From assembly GCA_017557625.1 (NCBI GenBank), contig JAFYYG010000001.1:1-64000 (forward strand): a stretch of DNA of 64,000 bases, written 5' to 3'. The notes beneath the pieces were generated by a model. It saw only the letters and a program-made list of their open reading frames with translations, was not told the origin of the DNA and made no database searches. This DNA is from Muribaculaceae bacterium (GTDB lineage: Bacteria; Bacteroidota; Bacteroidia; Bacteroidales; Muribaculaceae). A program made the translations under genes and the position numbers. Shown one piece after another: positions 3,281-61,943 of this stretch (its first letter is position 1; every line of letters starts with the position of its first letter).

Positions 3281-4916
3281 TGGAGCATCTGGGCTTGATT
3301 TGCTTGAAGAAATCGTTGCCCTTGTCGTCGACGAGGATGAAGGCGGGGAAGTCTTCCACCTCGATTTTCCAGATGGCCTCCATGCCGAGTTCGGGATACT
3401 CGACGCACTCGATGCTCTTGATATTGTTCTGCGCGAGGATGGCTGCTGGTCCGCCGATGCTGCCCAGATAAAAGCCGCCATGCTTCTTGCAGGCGTCGGT
3501 CACGGCCTGTGAGCGGTTGCCCTTGGCGAGCATGATAAGGCTGCCGCCGTGGTCTTGGAACTCATCAACGTAGGGGTCCATGCGTCCTGCTGTGGTGGGG
3601 CCCATCGAACCGCATGCCATGCCGGCAGGAGTCTTGGCAGGCCCTGCGTAGTATATGGGATGATCCTTGAGATACTGTGGCATACCCTCGCCAGCGTCGA
3701 GGCGCGCTTTGATTTTTGCGTGAGCGATGTCGCGGCCCACGATAATTGTGCCGTTAAGACTCAGACGAGTGCTAACGGGATATTGGCTCAATATCTTGCA
3801 CACCTCGCTCATGGGCTGGTTGAGGTCAATCTTCACGGCGTCGCCCTCGCCAGCTTGTCGCAATTCTTCAGGAATCAGCTCGGCGGGGTTGTCGTCGAGT
3901 TTCTCAATCCAGATGCCGTCGCGGTTGATTTTTGCCTTTATGTTGCGGTCGGCAGAGCAGCTCACGCCCAGACCGATGGGGCAGCTGGCACCGTGGCGTG
4001 GTAAGCGTACCACCCGGACGTCGTGAGCAAGGTACTTGCCGCCAAATTGTGCGCCCAATCCAATATTCTGAGCCTCCTCGAGAAGTTGCTTTTCGAGTTC
4101 TATGTCGCGGAAGGCGCGGCCTGTCTCGTCGCCGATGGTGGGGAGCTCGTCATAGTAATGGGTGGAGGCGAGTTTCACGGTGAGCAGGTTCTTCTCGGCA
4201 CTGGTGCCGCCAATCACGATAGCGATGTGATAGGGCGGACAAGCGGCAGTGCCCAGCGATTTCATCTTCTCTACGAGGAAGGGGATGAGGGTGCCGGGAT
4301 TCTGGATGCGTGCCTTAGTCTCTTGGTAGAGGTAGGTCTTGTTGGCGCTGCCGCCACCTTTGGTCACGCACAGGAACTTGTATTCCATGCCCTCAGTGGC
4401 CTCGAGATCGATTTGCGCGGGCAGGTTGCAACGGGTGTTCACCTCGTCAAACATGGTGAGGGGCGCGTTTTGCGAGTAGCGCAGGTTCTCCTCGGTGTAG
4501 GTCTTGAAAACGCCAAGCGACAGAGCCTCCTCGTCGCAGAAGCCTGTCCACACCTGCTGGCCCTTCTCGCCGTGGATGATGGCGGTGCCGGTGTCCTGGC
4601 ACAGAGGCAACTGGCCCTTCACCGAAGTCTCGGCATTGCGCAGGAAGGTGAGAGCCACATATTTGTCGTTCTCGCTTGCCTCGGGGTCGCTCAAAATCTT
4701 AGCCACCTGCTCGTTGTGGGCGCGGCGCAGCATGAACGACACGTCGCGGAAGCAGGCATTGGCAAGCATTGTCAATGCCTCGGGCTCGATTTTCAGGATT
4801 GGATTGCCTTCAAACTCGCCCACGCTCACGTGGTCCTTGGTGAGAAGGTAATACTCGGTCTTGTCTTCCCCAAGCTGGAACATGGGGGCATACTTAAACT
4901 CAGGAGTGTTAGCCAT
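3255..4916 (-). CDS. fumA: Fumarate hydratase, class I (iron-sulfur)
   Basis: Converts fumarate and malate in the cytoplasm, part of the fumarate-reducing branch used by Bacteroidales. The 553-residue protein has the class I N-terminal and C-terminal domains in one chain, the usual length. Likely [4Fe-4S] ligands are C106 (LPLCQDTG), C226 (TAACPPYH) and C312 or C320 ([12 protein letters not shown]). Also typical are [10 protein letters not shown] near residue 185 and [13 protein letters not shown] near 455. The start [11 protein letters not shown] fits the family. Odd point: the last six residues, CIMHNA, are encoded by the heptamer array at 3246-3280, so the natural C-terminus was probably extended or replaced by repeat DNA. 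The gene stands alone, with a terminator at 3200-3233. Confidence 0.95.
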
Positions 4917-9200: not shown

Positions 9201-9262
9201 CTTTTTATTACTGATTAAAATGTGTATTATCTAACAAGTTTAGAAACCACTAAGATTATGAT

Positions 9263-9352
9263 GATTCGTTTGAAAAAATGTAACGAAAACCTGATTATTC
9301 GTTTGAAAAAATGTAACAAACACTTGATTATTCGTTGGAAAAAGTGTATCTT
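9263..9352 (+). repeat. 33-bp periodic array, 3 units (ATTCGTTTGAAAAAATGTAA type)
   Basis: Units begin at 9264, 9297 and 9330 (ATTCG), exactly 33 bases apart. They share the GAAAAAnTGTA core with the arrays at 13431, 57862 and 60453, but have ATTCGTTT in place of GTCCCTT. No DUF4143 gene is adjacent. Confidence 0.75.
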
Positions 9353-13430: not shown

Positions 13431-13519
13431 GTCGCCCTGAAAAGTGCGCACTTTAGGCAAAAACTCGCCCCAAAAGTGTATACTATCAACAAAAACTCGC
13501 CCTGAAAAGTGTAAACTAA
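13431..13519 (+). repeat. 33-bp periodic array, 3 units (CTCGCCCTGAAAAGTGTAAA type)
   Basis: TCGCCC occurs at 13432, 13465 and 13497, a spacing of 33 then 32 bases, each followed by TGAAAAGTGxxxAC. Same layout as the arrays at 9263, 57862 and 60453 with a different left half. The 32-base step breaks the codon phase, which argues against a repeated peptide. Confidence 0.8.
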
Positions 13520-13525
13520 CTATAA

Positions 13526-13566
13526 AAAAGACAGCGACATGGCGTTTTGTGAGGTGCCATGTCGCT
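13526..13566 (-). terminator. Terminator of the outer-membrane barrel gene
   Basis: AGCGACATGGC (13533-13543) pairs perfectly with GCCATGTCGCT (13556-13566). Minus-strand reading ends in GTCTTTTTT. Confidence 0.85.
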
Positions 13567-57634: not shown

Positions 57635-57856
57635 AGAGGCTGTGTCAAAAATAAAAAACAACTGATTTTTAAATAAAATGCTCACCCTCGCAATGCATTG
57701 AGCAATCTCATGCTTTGACTCGCTTAACCGCATTTTTCTGATTAATCTGATTATTTATAAATTCACAAAAACCTATAAACCAGGGTGTTGAGAAATTCAG
57801 AACATTCAGATAATTCAGTTGTTTATATCAAAATCTGAGTTTGACACACCCTCTTT
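57635..57856. mobile_element. MITE-like element, copy 3
   Basis: Left end AGAGGCTGTGTCAAAAAT, right end TTTGACACACCCTCTTT, giving imperfect terminal inverted repeats of about 16 bases. Internal AACAACTGATTTTTAA faces ATAATTCAGTTGTTTAT. It contains the 30-base hairpin module also found at 3109-3136. No coding capacity. Confidence 0.6.
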
Positions 57857-57861
57857 CTCAC

Positions 57862-57949
57862 TAAAGTCCCTTGAAAAAGTGTGGCACTCAACCAAAAGTC
57901 CCTTGAAAAAGTGTAAGATTTTACCCAAAAGTCCCTTGAAAAAGTGTAA
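57862..57949 (+). repeat. 33-bp periodic array, 3 units (GTCCCTTGAAAAAGTGTAA type)
   Basis: Units at 57862, 57894 and 57927 (32 then 33 bases apart), the same sequence as the array at 60453. It is followed by the remnant 3' end of a DUF4143 ATPase gene at 57964-58004. Confidence 0.85.
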
Positions 57950-57963
57950 AAATATTTGGAAAG

Positions 57964-58004
57964 TTGCCTGACTTTATATGACATTTATGCTCACAGAGTT
58001 CTGA
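57964..58004 (+). pseudogene. Remnant of the 3' end of a DUF4143 ATPase gene
   Basis: TTG CCT, two extra bases, then codons for LYMTFMLTEF and a stop. The intact gene at 60612 ends LPLYMAFMLTEY and a stop. Only about 13 codons are left directly after the repeat array, as if the body of the gene had been deleted. Confidence 0.65.
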
Positions 58005-58135
58005 TTTATGAGACATCGTAGCCAAAAGACAAATACACTAATCAAAATTTTCTACTGCAACTATGGCTTTGTGACACCATAGGTGCAACTTTGTGAGAGT
58101 CCCACCCATTCACTTTCCCCAACACTTATAATTAA
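58005..58135. other. Intergenic stretch, nothing recognised
   Basis: No coding region or clear repeat. It lies between the DUF4143 remnant and the composite inverted-repeat element. Confidence 0.4.
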
Positions 58136-58530
58136 CGTAAGTTCGACGAATTTATCTTTTGATAATCACTCTGTTAGTAGCTCCCCCTCTAAGGCTCCCA
58201 CCCCTCTGCCTTTCAGGCACCTCCCCTCAGGCAGGGGAGGAATTGGGGTTGTGGGGAGTATGATAGTCTCAAGGAATTACAATTTCGCTTTTATCATACC
58301 CCTCAGTCACTTCGTGACAGAGGGTGTGTCAAAATTCTGGTTTAGTGCGCTTCGCGCAGAAATCTAACAAATCATCACAAATCAAACATTTATTTAATTT
58401 GTTGGTTTCAAGCAAATTAATTATTTGTTAGATTTGGAAATATTTGAATGATTTCTCACGCGTAGCGTGACTCCTCTATTTTGACACACCTCCAACTGAA
58501 ACACAGCAAGTTATTTTCGTCGAACTCACG
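58136..58530. mobile_element. Composite element with CGTnAGTTCGACGAA inverted ends
   Basis: CGTAAGTTCGACGAA (58136) faces TTCGTCGAACTCACG (to 58530), an inverted pair matching at 14 of 15 bases. Inside are a GC-rich part with stems GCCTTTCAGGC and CCTCCCCT-CAGGC-AGGGGAGG, and the complete MITE-like copy 4 (58319-58492). No transposase gene. Probably a non-autonomous element with another nested in it. Confidence 0.5.
58319..58492. mobile_element. MITE-like element, copy 4
   Basis: Left end AGAGGGTGTGTCAAAATTC, right end CTATTTTGACACACCTCC. Contains stems TGCGC-TTC-GCGCA and CACGC-GTA-GCGTG and an inverted pair AATCTAACAAAT / TATTTGTTAGATT. No coding capacity. Confidence 0.6.
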
Positions 58531-60452: not shown

Positions 60453-60573
60453 AAAAGTCCCTTGAAAAAGTGTAACGAAAAACTAAAAGTCCCTCGAAAA
60501 AGTGTAAGAAACATTAGGAAAGTCCCTTGAAAAAGTGTAAATTTGCAGCGAAAAGTCACTTGAAAAAGTGTAA
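60453..60573 (+). repeat. 33-bp periodic array, 4 units, on the DUF4143 ATPase promoter
   Basis: Units at 60453, 60485, 60518 and 60551 (spacing 32, 33, 33), each GTCCCTTGAAAAAGTGTAA with one or two changes, and 9-10-base unlike spacers. The promoter-like TAAATTTG at 60538-60545 overlaps units 3 and its spacer. The last unit ends 38 bases before the ATPase start. Iteron-like. Confidence 0.9.
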
Positions 60574-60611
60574 AAAATTTAATTAATCAGCTAATTTACA
60601 ATTATATATCT

Positions 60612-61943
60612 ATGTATAGGCGAAAAATAGAAAAAACTCTGCATAAGTGGAAGTCTCGGAACGACCATAATCCACTCGTCATTAAAGGGTGCCGCCAGTG
60701 CGGAAAAACTAGCAGTGTTCTGGCTTTTGCAAAGACAAATTATAAGCATGTCATTTATCTCGATTTTCACGAGCATGAAGAGTATAAAGCATTCTTTGCT
60801 GGCGCATTAAATACCGACACTATAGTGCTCAATATCACCATCGGGATGCCAGATGTAAAATTTGTGCCAGGTCATACTTGTCTCATACTTGATGAGATCC
60901 AAGAATGTCCAAGAGCCAGAGCGTCGCTCAAATTTTTTGCCTTAGACGGTCGCTATGATGTAATTTGCACAGGATCGCTGCTTGGAGTGAGCGGCTACAA
61001 GCTACCCGATAAAACAGATAAACAAGCATCAATACCAGTTGGCTTCGAAGAAAGCATAAATATGTATCCCATGGACTTCGAGGAATGGCTTTGGGCAAAT
61101 GGAGTGCAGCCGCAGCACTTTGATTACCTGCGACAATGCTTTGAGCGACAAGAGCCAGTTAACGAGGCCATTCATCGACACATGAGAGAGTTGCTGCTGA
61201 AATATATGATTGTGGGAGGTATGCCTGCAGCAGTTAAGACTTTCTTCACGTTCAACGACATGAATCAAGTGCAAACGGTTCAGCGTTACATAATTGAAGC
61301 TTATAAGGACGACATGATAAAATATGCCTCCAATCATGACCAACCGCTCATCAAAGAGTGCTTTGAGTCAATACCGGCACAATTAGCTCGTGAGAACAAG
61401 AAATTTACTTATTCCATCATTCGCAACAATGCCCGCGCTAGTCTGTATCAAGGCAGCCTGCAATGGATTGAAGATGCCGGAATCATCAGGAGATGTTATA
61501 ATCTGAGCATTACCGAATTACCTCTTGATGGTAACGCTATTAAAAATTCATTTAAGGTATATATGGCAGATATTGGGCTTTTGGTCAGTATGCTTGAAGA
61601 GGGAACTGCTTGGAGTATCATGCAAGGCAATCTGCATGGCTACAAAGGAGCAATTTTTGAGAACCTTGTCGCCGACATTTTAGGAAAAATGGGACGAAAA
61701 CTCTACTATTTCAAGAAAAATAGCGGATTGGAAATTGATTTTGTCATCCGCTACAAGGGAGAATGCTGCCCCATAGAATGTAAAGCTAGCACTGGCAACA
61801 CAAAGTCACTGAAGACTATTCTCAAGCACCCAGAACATTATCACGTGACACACGCCATCAAACTAGGAGACTACAACATTGGTAAAAACAACTCAATATT
61901 GACCTTGCCACTTTACATGGCATTCATGCTCACGGAGTACTGA
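60612..61943 (+). CDS. AAA ATPase with C-terminal DUF4143 domain
   Basis: A 443-residue protein starting MYRRKIEKTLHKWKSRNDHN. AAA_14 domain: Walker A GCRQCGKTSSVLAFA near residue 24-38, Walker B CLILDEIQECPRARASLKFF near 95, sensor ICTGSLLGVSG near 120. DUF4143 from about 215 to the end, with a PD-(D/E)xK-like set LEIDFVIRYKGECCPIECKA near 375-395. Family members are common and often many per genome in Bacteroidetes and archaea; their role is not established, though nuclease or DNA-linked function is suspected from the fold. A four-unit array overlaps its promoter, and a deleted copy with the same array lies 2.6 kb upstream. Confidence 0.9.
   Translation: MYRRKIEKTLHKWKSRNDHNPLVIKGCRQCGKTSSVLAFAKTNYKHVIYLDFHEHEEYKAFFAGALNTDTIVLNITIGMPDVKFVPGHTCLILDEIQECPRARASLKFFALDGRYDVICTGSLLGVSGYKLPDKTDKQASIPVGFEESINMYPMDFEEWLWANGVQPQHFDYLRQCFERQEPVNEAIHRHMRELLLKYMIVGGMPAAVKTFFTFNDMNQVQTVQRYIIEAYKDDMIKYASNHDQPLIKECFESIPAQLARENKKFTYSIIRNNARASLYQGSLQWIEDAGIIRRCYNLSITELPLDGNAIKNSFKVYMADIGLLVSMLEEGTAWSIMQGNLHGYKGAIFENLVADILGKMGRKLYYFKKNSGLEIDFVIRYKGECCPIECKASTGNTKSLKTILKHPEHYHVTHAIKLGDYNIGKNNSILTLPLYMAFMLTEY

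Follow-up and report, generated by a model that had tools for sequence, protein, structure and literature searches.

A direct-repeat array with constant 33-bp spacing and a gene-specific unit precedes PDC-S01 ATPase genes, suggesting that each protein reads its own switch

Direct repeats that lie beside a gene and overlap its promoter are familiar from autoregulated operators and from plasmid iterons of the RepA type, and archaeal Orc1/Cdc6 genes likewise have origin repeats beside them (structure 2qby). Here we describe a four-unit array of this general form ahead of an ATPase gene in a 64,000-nucleotide stretch of DNA from a Muribaculaceae bacterium (GenBank assembly GCA_017557625.1, contig JAFYYG010000001.1, positions 1 to 64,000; hereafter the window), together with its counterparts ahead of related genes. 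The window ATPase carries AAA_14 and DUF4143 domains (COG1373) and matches, end to end, PDC-S01 (E 8.5e-155, residues 2–441 of 443), a PADLOC phage-defence candidate recognised through protein models and genomic context. According to the available passages of two surveys, PDC-S01 ranks fourth in frequency among prokaryotic defence systems (29,494 cases in bacteria and 9,986 in archaea, experimental validation pending; PMC12988326) and is the most frequent single defence locus in the rumen, with 10,358 cases (PMC13356809). The archaeal arCOG03166 proteins, described in the passage at hand as AAA+ ATPases fused to helix-turn-helix and RecB nuclease domains with a likely role in defence (PMC4158269), would by our inference belong to the same family. 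The accessible portions of the published PDC-S01 descriptions make no mention of an upstream array.

Like RepA-type iterons and operators, the window repeats are spaced at about three helical turns, adjoin a gene and overlap its promoter; they differ in lacking a Rep protein, in lying on a 120-kb contig of chromosomal appearance, and in combining a fixed spacing with a site code that varies between genes. A Rep protein family beside the iterons is what marks an iteron replicon, and a Pfam search found no Rep domain in the ATPase; the replication-like control entertained by the first-pass annotation is thus left with a distant fold likeness to Orc1/Cdc6. Phased direct-repeat operators are already known. 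Among the open-access literature listings (bioRxiv and most subscription journals being outside their scope), no paper on arrays at these genes appeared, and the combination of a family-wide array, a fixed 33-base-pair (bp) geometry and a code diverging member by member is absent from those listings and the passages seen.

At the window locus, the 19-base unit stands at 60457–60475, 60489–60507, 60522–60540 and 60555–60573, with 0, 1, 0 and 1 mismatches, respectively. These positions bear out the steps of 32, 33 and 33 that the first-pass annotation had given, as well as the 38 bases between the last unit and the ATPase ATG at 60612 and the overlap with a TAnnTTTG motif (Table 1), which we take to be the −7 promoter box of Bacteroidota. 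Other parts of that description hold less well: (i) the 19-base units are 13–14 bases apart, and spacers of 9–10 bases result only when the unit is extended to take in the shared AAAA; (ii) the step of 32 breaks codon phase as claimed, whereas the step of 33 keeps it; and (iii) presentation on the same helix face is roughly correct, since a helical repeat of 10.5 bp makes 33 bp equal to about 3.1 turns. With up to three mismatches allowed, the 19-mer gives 7 matches in the window against 0.01 expected (100 shuffles), and 7 in the 3.05-Mb genome, where the reversed control pattern gives 2. Rather than being scattered without any link to DUF4143 genes, it is confined to this locus, where one array precedes the ATPase gene and another, 2.5 kb upstream, precedes an ATPase-gene scar; a wider regulon in the genome was rejected on this ground. 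A CRISPR array was also considered and rejected, since CRISPR spacers are about 30 bp long and the units here measure 19–20 bp, with spacers of 12–14 bp that include a promoter-like box.

The array is a property of the family. For each gene, the 220 bp ahead of the start were compared with themselves at every shift from 18 to 45, and a best self-match scoring at least 11 was counted. From the window's genus we took 90 of the listed matches, largely those ranked highest, and to these were added 80 relatives, kept out of 193, from named Bacteroidales-type metagenome-assembled genome (MAG) records; 169 of these 170 loci were scored (L093 was dropped for too little upstream DNA), and they hold some MAGs twice, leaving 154 distinct proteins. 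Of these 154, for which 150 bp or more of upstream DNA was available, 148 score at least 11, every one of them with its best shift at 31–34. By comparison, of 770 dinucleotide shuffles 13 reach that score and 93 have their best shift at 31–34. The association with DUF4143 ATPase genes proposed from the window alone is therefore upheld. Paralogues in the window's own genome carry a 33-bp array (on C58, score 61), a 23-bp array (at C69:2297, score 20) and a 32-bp match (at C69:862, score 14).

Within this family the spacing is constant and the unit changes. In the group closest to the window, 97 of 102 distinct proteins have at least two units of the form AAAA[G/C]TCG, 3 or 4 bases, (N)AAAAnGTG, and 169 of the 184 intervals between units are exactly 33 bases (the others being ten of 32, two of 31, one of 65 and two of 66). 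Other subfamilies have, by eye, other unit types (e.g., TTATGTGATTTT, TTGCAAAAAGTTGTAA, CTCATAAAAGTGTAAA or CCTCCGTTTGGTGTA). The geometry extends to far more distant genes: the best shift is 31–34 in 23 of 29 distant Bacteroidota loci (28–36% protein identity), 13 of these scoring at least 11; in 25 of 28 loci from a viral collection (26–62% identity), 22 of these scoring at least 11; and in 14 of 18 loci from plasmid and phage collections, all 14 scoring at least 11. The last set, 12 of 52 and 6 of 59 rows of the match lists picked for taxonomic spread, spans six phyla (Bacteroidota, Bacillota, Actinomycetota, Fusobacteriota, Pseudomonadota and Chlamydiota). That the repeats are functionless noise of tandem duplication is scarcely credible: units are indeed homogeneous within loci, as duplication would leave them, but spacers have diverged to 58% identity (107 pairs) while units remain at 90% (288 pairs), and the period is constant in distant relatives whose sequences are not. 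The shuffles and this contrast between unit and spacer rule out a random or slippage origin of the array.

The array is also tied to a promoter-like box. TAnnTTTG boxes occur in 96 of the 98 close-group loci that have a unit; of 119 boxes, 78 start 12–13 bp before a unit and 59 stand directly after a GTG, whereas 30 boxes occur on the opposite strand of these 102 stretches. The repeats thus overlap the gene's own putative promoter, as in an autoregulatory operator, with the box lying between units 3 and 4 in the window and its register kept in relatives. Autoregulation, one of the roles the first-pass annotation had put forward, fits best, with binding and repression as predictions from this arrangement. 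It is very improbable that the array acts instead as RNA in the 5' leader, through attenuation or control of translation. Units do lie near the ATG, and the last one contains a short perfect hairpin, but the leader folds no better than expected (z −0.28, with 78 of 200 shuffles folding at least as well), and in part of the loci one or more units lie upstream of the box and would therefore not be transcribed from it.

Both domains named in the first-pass annotation exceed the curated Pfam cut-offs (AAA_14, E 8.9e-21 and 74.7 bits against 27; DUF4143, E 1.1e-32 and 113.4 bits against 28.1); an NCBIfam search of the ATPase gave no match. Across 52 sequences G31, K32, D94, E95, E350, E374, E389 and K391 are invariant and D376 nearly so, in keeping with the Walker A/B and PD-(D/E)xK residues of AAA_14/DUF4143 ATPases. 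The AlphaFold2 model (mean predicted local distance difference test score, pLDDT, 90.5) has an AAA+ part and a nuclease-like C-terminus, with helices and strands at about residues 244–300 whose arrangement we interpret as a winged helix. A sequence search of solved structures returned midasin only, over about 50 residues. With VIA-align the model resembles STAND/NLR-like ATPases, and these, together with the archaeal ATPases SSO1545 and PAB2304 (2fna, 2qen), are among the closest known systems; MalT and Avs3 are Foldseek matches, neither of which is in the VIA-align list.

As for the reader of the array, unit similarity follows protein identity, with a rank correlation of 0.55 (14,706 pairs, 172 loci). 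Proteins at least 60% identical in different genomes have a unit similarity of 0.55 (552 pairs); paralogues within one genome have 0.26 (34 pairs), equal to the between-genome baseline of 0.26 (2,371 pairs below 45% identity). No conserved partner gene was found among 351 neighbouring open reading frames (ORFs) at 80 loci, where the commonest neighbour family (9 of 80) is itself a paralogous ATPase and the next (6 of 80) another P-loop ATPase. A separate host regulator might bind the arrays in place of the ATPase, yet we consider this improbable, because the unrelated units of same-genome paralogues would require many host regulators of identical 33-bp geometry, and no conserved neighbour encodes one. 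From these two observations the ATPase behind each array is the simplest and likeliest candidate for its reader. When overall identity is removed, covariation between protein and unit in the 45–75% identity band peaks at residues 261–290 (0.28), with overlapping windows at 0.23 and 0.18 and the next other window at 0.13; free permutation of the units, which ignores kinship, stayed at or below 0.19 in 200 runs. We regard the winged helix as the likely, though not proven, part that reads the array.

We therefore regard the array as, probably, a private operator that lets each ATPase regulate the promoter of its own gene. In the window's clade the unit would be a bipartite site, and the 33-bp repeat would let copies of one protein stack on nearly the same face of the DNA around the −7 box. 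The ATPase, with its AAA+, winged-helix and PD-(D/E)xK nuclease parts, would bind the units cooperatively and hold its own expression low, so that a nuclease-bearing protein is kept scarce. Repression could be relieved when bound protein is lost, as upon infection or transfer to a naive cell, or when its ATP state changes. As each copy has its own site code, paralogues in one cell would escape cross-regulation, which suggests how a genome tolerates several nuclease-bearing paralogues. For PDC-S01, with its presumptive defence role, an array in cis with constant geometry and changing code makes function testable by naming the DNA that the protein should bind; the arrays of paralogues offer ready specificity controls for such binding, and the array itself provides a signature by which units, whether intact or decayed, can be recognised in sequence.

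Several observations weigh against this reading or limit the evidence for it. (i) In the family-wide survey, close relatives are over-represented because the genus loci came mostly from the top of the match list and 80 of 193 further relatives were kept; 6 of the 169 relatives (L050, L065, L095–L098) score below 11, and other genes in the same records reach 11 in 35 of 195 cases, 10 of these at shifts 31–34. Of nine of these ten control genes, six begin like other P-loop ATPases and three do not. (ii) Among the distant Bacteroidota loci only 14 of 29 score at least 11, 13 of them at 31–34; three of the 25 viral-collection loci at 31–34 score below 11, and that set holds several near duplicates and was not thinned (a 29th locus, L269, had too little upstream DNA); the plasmid and phage loci L229, L232 and L235 fail, and L231 has its best shift at 42, yet contains two unit pieces exactly 33 apart. 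That the unit tracks the protein tree was judged by eye only. (iii) The winged-helix covariation is not robust, losing its place as top signal upon redundancy removal: with one protein per 80% cluster, residues 351–380 lead (0.18 versus 0.14 at 261–290), the 75–99% band is also led by 351–380 (0.25, the winged helix being second with 0.16), and the 25–45% band is led by 121–150 (0.30, with the winged helix at about 0.06). Moreover, the winged helix of STAND/NLR-like ATPases is usually without DNA binding. (iv) The position of the box relative to the detected units varies between loci and can be upstream, within or downstream. (v) A stricter genus-wide pattern located 15 arrays, of which 10 lie ahead of an intact ATPase gene and 5 do not. 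(vi) A DUF4143 subfamily of about 390 amino acids (L199–L228) has no scoring 31–34 array at any of its 26 scored loci, four of the 30 having been dropped for want of a start.

In that subfamily, 14 of the 26 loci (e.g., L214, L227 and L202) carry an inverted repeat of about 31–43 bp near the start codon, scoring at least 11, compared to none of 260 shuffles. Two subfamilies would thus have two site forms at the same place, which is a good fit to autoregulation. Two loci of the same subfamily have 22-bp direct repeats.

Another reading, which we hold to be unlikely, treats the array as a loading platform that loads or holds the ATPase, as origin repeats do for Orc1/Cdc6, with the nuclease acting on nearby or invading DNA and gene control as a by-product. 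The fold, read as AAA+ plus winged helix, and the Foldseek match to Cdc6/Orc1 on origin DNA (2qby, E 1.3e-5) favour such a platform, as do the conserved nuclease residues and the persistence of arrays without a gene. Orc1/Cdc6 genes too have repeats beside them. The window ATPase differs from Orc1/Cdc6 in its PD-(D/E)xK domain, in having many paralogues with private arrays, and in a superposition that is poor with VIA-align.

Table 1. Positions in the window of the arrays, the ATPase gene and its parts.
Feature	Position	Strand	Remarks
Live array of four bipartite units (AAAAGTC...) at steps of 32, 33, 33, ahead of ATPase gene	60453..60573	+	
TAAATTTG, TAnnTTTG box that abuts the unit 3 GTG, ahead of unit 4	60538..60545	+	
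ATPase gene, 443 amino acids, AAA_14 + DUF4143, PADLOC PDC-S01	60612..61943	+	
AAA_14 domain, residues 19–159	60666..61088	+	G26, R28, G31, K32, D94, E95 invariant
Region interpreted as winged helix-turn-helix, residues 244–303, proposed array reader	61341..61520	+	AlphaFold2 secondary structure, suggestive covariation
PD-(D/E)xK-like nuclease core (E350, E374/D376, E389-x-K391)	61659..61784	+	conserved columns
Orphan array, three units of live-array type, steps 32, 33	57863..57949	+	
Scar, 42 columns, 83% identical to ATPase gene 3' end	57964..58005	+	
Orphan array, three units ATTATTCGTTTGAAAAAATGTA, type of another subfamily (L064), no ORF of at least 100 amino acids beside	9259..9348	+	
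Orphan array, two units of the AAAACTCGCCC...AAAAGTGTA type seen at L122 and L133, no ORF of at least 100 amino acids beside	~13459..13528	+	

Array and gene are inherited together. In 16 pairs of similar copies selected for unlike flanks, the left edge of the shared block lies 89–281 bp ahead of the ATG, and its right edge falls anywhere from 4 bp short of the gene end to 154 bp past it. The block thus spans roughly array to stop codon, as expected of the single unit that the first-pass annotation had inferred. Flanking DNA is common to 13 of 26 pairs with at least 95% protein identity and to none of 87 pairs at 80–85%. The overall interpretation of that annotation is supported in part. Mobility, which it had also raised, is hypothetical as far as machinery of the unit's own is concerned: a search for empty sites yielded no clean target site and no transposition mechanism, the nearest case being L292, which has the left flank of L178 without the ATPase but with other DNA in its place.

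The closest relative, G001 (91%), has a GNAT gene, an array, the ATPase gene and an acyl-CoA synthetase-like gene in a row. The window keeps this gene order and has an extra 2.8 kb, which contains a BspA-like gene and an orphan array joined to the 42-column scar (Table 1); we read this orphan array and scar as a copy that lost its gene. Elsewhere in the genus, arrays precede a gene truncated after some 90 codons (L310) or a start remnant (L318), and at L011, L315 and L327 an array occurs with no ATPase match in the available stretch. We read these cases as arrays that outlive deleted ATPase genes.

There is also a bolder possibility, to which we give only a small chance: that array and ATPase-nuclease form a self-contained mobile immune or selfish unit. 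The ATPase would be parked on its private array, and the 33-bp array would mark identity besides acting as operator. The nuclease would be released or titrated if the array were lost, diluted or mimicked, e.g., by an orphan array in a prophage, and rapidly diverging private codes would let many units coexist in one genome without crosstalk. An orphan array of three 33-bp units lies on a phage-like contig seen in two samples (L330:3262–3320 and L329; IMG/VR 3300021400_000191 and 3300021399_000152), flanked by genes labelled from sequence as holin-like and integrase-like and with no ATPase match in the available stretch; it may be a decoy, a regulator or a relic.

A looser two-unit pattern gives 7 matches in the window's own genome, all in three of the window arrays (control 0), and misses the array at 13459. 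With four arrays of this kind in 64 kb and no other placed by the two-unit pattern in the 3.05-Mb genome, the region is a possible hot spot. A dispersed repeat of about 75 bp occurs at L178:1033–1112, 2667–2746 and 4408–4484 and at many other places in the genus, often several times within a few kb, and from its sequence looks like a transfer RNA (tRNA) 3' end plus terminator; one pair of copies brackets an array-ATPase unit, possibly reflecting tRNA-bounded cassettes. Unlinked copies at L159, L166, L168 and L170 have, by eye, remnants of one convergent small reading frame just past the ATPase stop. Finally, the window interval 57840–58500, from the GNAT to the BspA-like gene, contains recurring words such as TTTGACACACC (by eye), possibly a dispersed intergenic repeat.
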